64,000 nt of DNA from Chloroflexota bacterium (GTDB lineage Bacteria; Chloroflexota; Dehalococcoidia; Lucifugimonadales; Lucifugimonadaceae), in NCBI GenBank assembly GCA_002718415.1, contig PBEM01000004.1, positions 38,140 through 102,139 of the forward strand. The letters are read 5' to 3'. Each line of letters opens with the position of its first letter. Position 1 is the stretch's first letter. A program made the translations under genes and the position numbers. The notes beneath the pieces are model-generated. The model saw nothing but the letters and a program-made list of their open reading frames with translations, was not told the origin of the DNA and made no database searches. Shown here one piece after another: positions 9,419 to 11,944 of this stretch.

Positions 9419-10654
9419 ATGAATTTACTAAAATCATCTAAAAAATACACTAATAAAATTTATTACGGTTGGTACATAGTTGCTGCATCTAGTTGGGTAA
9501 ATGCTATAGGTGGCTCAGTACAATGGAAAGGTTTCACTGTATTTTTTTTACCTATAGCGACTTCGCTAAATCTATCTTATACACAAGCCGCTTTACCATT
9601 TGCATTAGCTAGAGCTGAAAATGGATTATTAGGGCCTATAACAGGTAGGATGATAGATAAATTTGGTGTAAGACCTATGATGATATTAGGCACAATTTTA
9701 GCTGGAATAGGTTATTTATTATTATCTAGAACAAATAACTTCACATCTTTCTTATTGATATATGTATTTGCAATATGTCTAGGATCTTCAACAAGTTTTA
9801 TGCAAGCATCTACTACCGCTATAAATATGTGGTTTGTAAAAAAAAGAGGTTTAGCAATATCAATAAATAGCGCTGCATTTAGATTAGGAGGCGCATTTAT
9901 GATACCAATTCTCTCAATTATTATCCTTAGATGGGGATGGGAAACAGCCTCTATGATAGTCGGAATAGGAATTTTAATATTAATAGTACCTGCTTCATTA
10001 GTTTATAAAAAATCGCCAGAATCTATTGGAGAAAATCCTGATGGATTAAAGAATATTGAAAATTACGAATCACTAAATAATGATTGGGAAACAAAAGAAG
10101 CACTAAAAACTAGATCTTTTTGGATTTTATCTCTTGGGACTATATTACGAATGGCAGTACATGGAACAATTTATGTACATTTTATACCCATATTAGTATG
10201 GAAAGGAGAAACACAGCAAACAGCAGCAAATTTGATAGGCGCTATAGCTCTAATAGCTGTCCCTCTAATAATTTTATTCGGGTTTATCAGTGACAAAATA
10301 CCAAGACAAAAACTTCTAGGAATATTATATGCATCTGCATCAGTTTCTTTACTACTAATGTACTTTGCTGATGGAACATGGCCTATATTCTTCTCAATGA
10401 TTTTATTTATCGGAACAGAAATAGCAGCAGGATTTAACTGGGCTTTAGTAGGAGATATGTTTGGAAGAAAAAATTTTGCAACTATTAGAGGATGGATTTC
10501 TCCAATGTATAATGTTTCATTATTTGTTGGACCTTTAGCAGCTGGATATACTAAAGATAATACAGGTTCTTATGAATATGTATTATTAACAGGAAGTGTT
10601 CTTATGTTAATGGCTGCTATAACTTTTATGTTACTAAAAAATCCTAAAAGATGA
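9419..10654 (+). CDS. MFS transporter, oxalate/formate-antiporter-like
   Basis: 411 residues with about 12 hydrophobic segments and a central hydrophilic loop near residues 200-225 (YKKSPESIGENPDG), the standard major facilitator layout. The opening YYGWYIVAASSWVNA and the loop motif DKFGVRPMMI after helix 2 place it with the oxalate/formate and monocarboxylate transporter-like MFS proteins. The substrate cannot be read from the sequence; an organic anion is the family tendency. It is flanked by argS (divergent) and a tRNA-like element on the opposite strand, 2 nt after the stop, so it is probably monocistronic. Confidence 0.85.
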   Translation: MNLLKSSKKYTNKIYYGWYIVAASSWVNAIGGSVQWKGFTVFFLPIATSLNLSYTQAALPFALARAENGLLGPITGRMIDKFGVRPMMILGTILAGIGYLLLSRTNNFTSFLLIYVFAICLGSSTSFMQASTTAINMWFVKKRGLAISINSAAFRLGGAFMIPILSIIILRWGWETASMIVGIGILILIVPASLVYKKSPESIGENPDGLKNIENYESLNNDWETKEALKTRSFWILSLGTILRMAVHGTIYVHFIPILVWKGETQQTAANLIGAIALIAVPLIILFGFISDKIPRQKLLGILYASASVSLLLMYFADGTWPIFFSMILFIGTEIAAGFNWALVGDMFGRKNFATIRGWISPMYNVSLFVGPLAAGYTKDNTGSYEYVLLTGSVLMLMAAITFMLLKNPKR

Positions 10655-10656
10655 AT

Positions 10657-10733
10657 TGGTCGGATTGACAGGATTTGAACCTATGACCTTTGCATCACCA
10701 GTGCAATGCACTAACGAACTGGGCCACACCACC
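10657..10733 (-). tRNA. Degenerate tRNA-like gene, anticodon GGT (tRNA pseudogene candidate)
   Basis: A cloverleaf can be laid out exactly: T-arm ATAGG-TTCAAAT-CCTGT, variable loop AGGTC, anticodon arm TTGCA-CTGGTGA-TGCAA (perfect 5-bp stem), D-arm, and an encoded CCA (10657-10659). The loop reads anticodon GGT (Thr, codon ACC). The acceptor stem fails, however: GGTGGTG against CAATCCG has mismatches at pairs 1-72, 3-70 and 5-68. The D-stem GCCC/GTGC has a mismatch, and the D-loop has CG where GG is expected. Position 37 is G, unlike ANN-decoding tRNAs, which carry A37. The 3' end (G72, A73) is proline-like. It could be a decaying tRNA or an unusual functional one. Confidence 0.5.
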
Positions 10734-10797: not shown

Positions 10798-11944
10798 ATG
10801 GAAAAAAATATAAAATCTCCAAATATTAAGGATCTAGATACTCTTATATCAGAATTAAATCAAAATATTTCTGAGATAGTGAGGAGACTTTGACCTAAAT
10901 AAAATCCACATGGAAATAGATACTCTGGAGAAAAAAACTTTATCCGAAAATTTTTGGAATGACAGAAACAAAGCACAAATTTTCATGAAAACTCTTTCAT
11001 CAAAAAAAGATGAATATAATAAATGGAAAGACATCGTATCAAAATCAGAAAATTTAGTGGAATTTTCGAAGTTAATTAAATCAGAAAATGATTCATCTTT
11101 AAACAATACAGCTTATGAAGAATATGCTGATCTTCTATCTAATGTAAAAAGTTTAGAATTTGAATTACAATTAAATGGAGAGTTTGATGTGAGGTCGGCT
11201 ATCGTAACTATTACTCAAGGAGCAGGTGGAGTAGATGCCCAGGATTGGGCAGAAATGTTGTTGAGAATGTACATTAGATGGGCTGAAAAGAAAAATTTCA
11301 CCGTAGAAACTTTAGATTTTTCTCCAGGAGACGAAGCAGGAATAAAAACCGCAGTTATAAAAATCAATGGAAGATATAGTTATGGATACTTAAGGTCAGA
11401 AAAAGGGGTTCATAGACTCGTTAGATTATCCCCTTATGATACTGATCACAAAAGACATACTAGCTTCGCATCAGTTGAAATTTTACCAGAACCTGATGAA
11501 GCAGAAGAAATAAAAGTAAATACAGATGAAATAAAAATCGATGTCTTTAGAGCAAGTGGTAATGGTGGTCAAAGTGTACAAAAAAATTCTACAGCCGTAC
11601 GAATTACCCACATACCAACAGGAATAGTAGTATCAGTTCAAAATGAAAGATCTCAGGCTCAAAATAAAGAGATTGCTATGAAAATTCTTACCGCAAAATT
11701 AACAGATTTAGAAATAAAAAAAATATCTGATAAACAAGCAAAACTGAAAGGAGAACATATATCTGCAGAATTCGGTAGGCAAGTTAGAAGTTATATACAG
11801 CATCCATACCAAATGGTAAAAGATCATAGAACTAATTATCAAACAAATAAAACTAATGAAATCCTTGATGGTGAAATAGATTCATTACTTAAATCCTACT
11901 TAACAAATCAAATAGAAAATCATTCTAATAGTATATTGGACTAG
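10798..11944 (+). CDS. prfB: Peptide chain release factor 2 (programmed +1 frameshift)
   Basis: RF2 reads UGA and UAA stops and triggers peptide release. The gene is in two frames: codons 1-31 from the ATG at 10798, an in-frame TGA at 10891-10893, then continuation in the +1 frame from GAC at 10892. Ribosomes slip on CTT-T, helped by the upstream AGGAG, giving 381 residues. The GGQ catalytic motif (about 256-258, in SGNGGQSVQK) is intact. The stop-recognition tripeptide is SPY (about 211-213) where SPF is usual. In this family the frameshift lets RF2 control its own level. It is probably a single-gene unit; the next gene starts 69 nt later. Confidence 0.95.
10882..10894 (+). promoter_or_regulatory. 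prfB: RF2 programmed +1 frameshift site
   Basis: AGGAG (10882-10886), one base, then CTT-TGA-C (10888-10894). This is the known RF2 recoding signal: a Shine-Dalgarno-like element, a slippery CTT codon, an in-frame TGA and a following C. The spacing between the AGGAG and CTT is 1 nt, shorter than the 3 nt in the Escherichia coli site. Confidence 0.92.

Follow-up and report, generated by a model that had tools for sequence, protein, structure and literature searches.

A probable tRNA-Pro(GGG) pseudogene carrying a threonine-type anticodon at the MFS-prfB junction of a small AT-rich bacterial genome

The window (the whole 64-kb stretch of DNA that was analysed) belongs to a draft genome of 1.06 Mb, 74% complete and with 32% GC, which is the one genome of its species that was examined. 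Between an MFS transporter gene (9419-10654, plus strand) and prfB, which encodes release factor 2 (10798-11944, plus strand), lies a 77-nt tRNA-like sequence on the minus strand, running exactly from 10733 to 10657 and ending in an encoded CCA (10657-10659). It is convergent with the MFS transporter gene, which stops 2 nt from the CCA end. Read on the minus strand from 10733 to 10657, the 5' half is GGTGGTG TG GCCC AGTTCGTTA GTGC A TTGCA CTGGTGA TGCAA and the 3' half is AGGTC ATAGG TTCAAAT CCTGT CAATCCG A CCA. The neighbouring prfB starts at the ATG at 10798, the mechanical list of open reading frames placing its start too late, and contains the standard programmed +1 frameshift site (AGGAG ... 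CTT TGA C) within 10798-10893 on the plus strand, with the in-frame TGA at 10891-10893.

In a search of the whole window against 4227 Rfam families, the tRNA model (RF00005) matched 10657-10733 with 42 bits (E 1.6e-5), and the tRNA resemblance is therefore not due to chance. This is the weakest of the 24 Rfam tRNA matches genome-wide, the others scoring between 47 and 73 bits. ARAGORN, which the initial annotation had proposed as a check, called no tRNA gene at 10657-10733 and reported none anywhere in the window.

The initial annotation had described a cloverleaf with perfect anticodon and T arms, three of seven acceptor pairs mismatched, a mismatch in the D-stem and a lost D-loop G, and each of these elements was confirmed pair by pair. 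A functional tRNA has seven acceptor pairs; here the 5' strand GGTGGTG (10727-10733) and the 3' strand CAATCCG, which with the discriminator A73 occupies 10660-10667, leave 1-72, 3-70 and 5-68 mismatched (G1.G72, T3.C70 and G5.A68), with a further G4.T69 wobble. Likewise, the paired D-stem and the G18 G19 of a functional tRNA are lost, through a C12.T23 mismatch and a G19 to T change that turns the D-loop GG into GT. The anticodon stem (5/5) and the T stem (5/5, including one G-T pair) are fully paired. The anticodon loop CTGGTGA (10695-10701) places GGT at 34-36, followed by G37, and G72 and A73 are present, all as the initial annotation had read them.

Intact tRNA-Pro(GGG) genes, with all pairs formed, lie at the same MFS-prfB junction in both other species of the genus that were examined, and several other genera of the family have an intact tRNA-Pro(GGG) of nearly identical sequence there. 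The gene order in relatives is argS, the MFS transporter gene, tRNA-Pro(GGG) convergent with it, and prfB. The two congeners' genes differ from each other at 3/77 positions, and in two other genera many species share one identical tRNA-Pro(GGG) sequence. Among named genomes, an exact-pattern scan yielded only an intact tRNA-Pro(GGG) on a contig titled Gemmatimonadales UBA4456, and the stretch of that contig examined has neither MFS nor prfB as a neighbour. The window copy differs from the congener genes at 12/77 and 13/77 positions, from its own genome's tRNA-Pro(TGG) at 29 and from its own tRNA-Thr(GGT) at 42 of 77 aligned columns. Genomic position and closest sequence thus both point to a tRNA-Pro(GGG) orthologue by descent, and the hint of a proline-like body in the initial annotation proved correct. 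The window copy resembles a bacterial tRNA-Pro(GGG) in synteny, in its 77-nt length, in G37, G72 and A73, and in an anticodon stem and T arm that match those of the congeners fully or almost fully; it differs in the three acceptor mismatches, the D-stem mismatch, the lost G19 and GGT in place of GGG. With the Rfam model the congener orthologues score 66.6 and 65.9 bits versus 42 for the window copy. Their predicted folds reach -31 and -33 kcal/mol and keep the acceptor stem and T arm, the first as a full cloverleaf, whereas the minimum-energy fold of the window copy (-20.5 kcal/mol) contains no cloverleaf and is no better than those of shuffled sequences.

Eleven substitutions are private to the window copy: C1→G, G3→T, G12→C, C16→T, G19→T, C23→T, G36→T, G38→A, C50→T, C68→A and C69→T. 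Two of these, at positions 36 and 38, convert the ancestral anticodon loop CTGGGGG, found in both congeners, into CTGGTGA; the threonine anticodon itself is due to the single change at position 36. All 11 fall at ancestral G/C sites (P 0.003 if positions are treated as equal), nine are G/C to A/T, there is no indel, and none is compensatory or restores a pair. For other tRNAs, the median difference between this genome and its nearest congener is 2.4%, typical orthologues being 0-3 bases apart; the tRNA-Thr(CGT) value in this comparison (75/75), an alignment failure, was disregarded. The window copy thus shows what marks a tRNA pseudogene, namely faster substitution than in its intact orthologues and no compensatory change. 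The G/C to A/T bias is what DNA free of constraint would show in a genome of 32% GC.

The intact arms could be taken as a sign of residual selection, a possibility that we reject. Since the anticodon stem and the T arm hold few of the G/C sites (4 and 7, respectively, of the 47 ancestral ones), their sparing is unremarkable and reads as a chance leftover of GC-biased decay; with hits confined to ancestral G/C positions, P is 0.33 for none in the anticodon stem and 0.47 for no more than one in the T arm. At fourfold degenerate sites the neighbouring genes are 55% different from those of the sister species, and the intergenic DNA aligns poorly; by this comparison, selection acted on the remnant, still about 85% identical, until fairly recently.

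Together, these observations make it very probable (about 0.93) that 10657-10733 is a decaying tRNA-Pro(GGG) pseudogene that has lost its function in this species. Indeed, intact syntenic orthologues and 11 private, non-compensatory substitutions favour the suggestion in the initial annotation of a pseudogene in a compact genome. tRNAscan-SE assigns tRNA pseudogenes at a total score below 55 bits combined with a sequence score below 10 or a structure score below 5 bits (PMC8450103), and the window copy shares with the genes so flagged a low covariance score, broken stems and an anticodon at odds with the isotype of the tRNA body. Its 42 bits were obtained with the Rfam model, which differs from the tRNAscan-SE model behind the 55-bit criterion. 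Presumably, the ancestral single-copy tRNA-Pro(GGG) at the MFS-prfB junction lost its function in this species and then decayed by point mutation following the G/C to A/T bias of the genome, and with the acceptor stem, D-stem and D-loop GG broken a usable tRNA would no longer be made. The GGT anticodon would then be an incidental G36 to T change, tolerable in a tRNA that had already lost its function or could not be charged.

Loss of the GGG isoacceptor raises the question of how proline codons are read. The genome contains tRNA-Pro(TGG), and in E. coli the UGG isoacceptor with a modified U34 decodes all four proline codons (PMC4519876). Among the genes of the window, CCC makes up 6% and CCT 47% of proline codons; CCT being common, tRNA-Pro(TGG) must read it. 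Furthermore, the genome encodes a UPF0176/TrhO-like protein, a member of a known family of wobble-uridine hydroxylases; peptidase U32, which would provide the alternative TrhP route to wobble-U hydroxylation, was absent from the four genomes searched, this one included. The remaining tRNA-Pro(TGG), probably with a U34 modified in the manner of 5-hydroxyuridine, would read all four CCN codons, and together with the TrhO-like hydroxylase it may have made the GGG isoacceptor dispensable. Codon usage did not drive this loss, since the sister species, where usage is similar, retains its GGG tRNA.

An alternative is that the locus still yields a non-canonical tRNA, charged with proline (or threonine) and mistranslating threonine codons, or with its acceptor stem repaired by RNA editing. 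The intact anticodon and T arms and the encoded CCA would fit this, as would a candidate promoter, a TACAAT box identified by eye 17-18 bases upstream and common to this genome and the sister species, through which transcription may persist at the locus. However, the acceptor stem has lost three of its seven pairs, that at position 5 among them, the D-stem and D-loop are damaged with no compensatory change, and the energy fold lacks a cloverleaf. Among the bases that prolyl-tRNA synthetase uses to identify its tRNA is G36, and U36 removes this identity base. The acceptor identity of tRNA-Thr lies in G1-C72 and C2-G71; the window copy has G1.G72, which is unsuited to threonyl-tRNA synthetase, and G2-C71. 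The anticodon triplet is the only likeness to a bacterial tRNA-Thr(GGT), and the initial annotation's query about another such gene was answered by a normal one elsewhere in the genome, identical in three species of the genus; on body sequence and on this normal gene we reject the locus as a tRNA-Thr. We consider a non-canonical tRNA highly improbable, and put at similarly long odds a persisting transcript, either a stable tRNA-derived RNA or a Pro-tRNA that is weakly charged and reads threonine ACC/ACU codons at a low level. Mischarging or a tRNA-derived RNA, both envisaged initially, find no support.

Less likely still is a small regulatory RNA or conserved structured element closed by an outer TTGGT/ACCAA stem. 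These segments can indeed form five Watson-Crick pairs outside the acceptor, as first noted, and folding of the extended sequence predicts this stem. The proposal that it replaces the lost stem did not hold, since 43% of random 22-mers from the window pair with the 3' side at least as well and the extended fold is no better than shuffles (z -0.71); we reject this pairing as chance. A region made up of the anticodon stem, variable loop, T arm and 3' end has slightly fewer substitutions than expected, even among G/C sites (P 0.046), but it was picked once the data had been seen and the result is not treated as evidence. Furthermore, the decayed form is absent from the other species examined.

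An assembly or sequencing error, or a chimeric mix of strains, in an otherwise intact tRNA-Pro(GGG) is comparably remote: the draft state, the single genome of the species and the intact congeners would allow it, and an intact acceptor stem in relatives, which the initial annotation took as its sign, was indeed found, but 11 scattered substitutions with a strong G/C to A/T bias, all at ancestral G/C sites, no indel and intact neighbouring genes argue for decay instead, leaving a slight residual probability to an assembly fault or a population polymorphism.

Decay of tRNA-Pro(GGG) thus gives a real feature an ordinary explanation, that of a dying gene in a small AT-rich genome. The locus offers a clean snapshot of tRNA isoacceptor loss in such a genome, with the sister species intact at the same junction, and illustrates that an apparent anticodon switch can arise as a by-product of decay. 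In annotation, it should be labelled a tRNA-Pro(GGG) pseudogene and not a tRNA-Thr.

Two further observations concern tRNA genes of relatives. The tRNA-Ser(GCT) genes of the two congeners (L017, contig G000:C10, and genome G001) differ at 32 of 93 aligned columns, whereas most other tRNAs are nearly identical, and these two genes are possibly not orthologous. In a relative of the same order, an unusual tandem array (L048, contig G052:C1, 1331-2153) packs nine tRNA genes into about 820 bases, seven of which ARAGORN calls tRNA-Asp(GTC).
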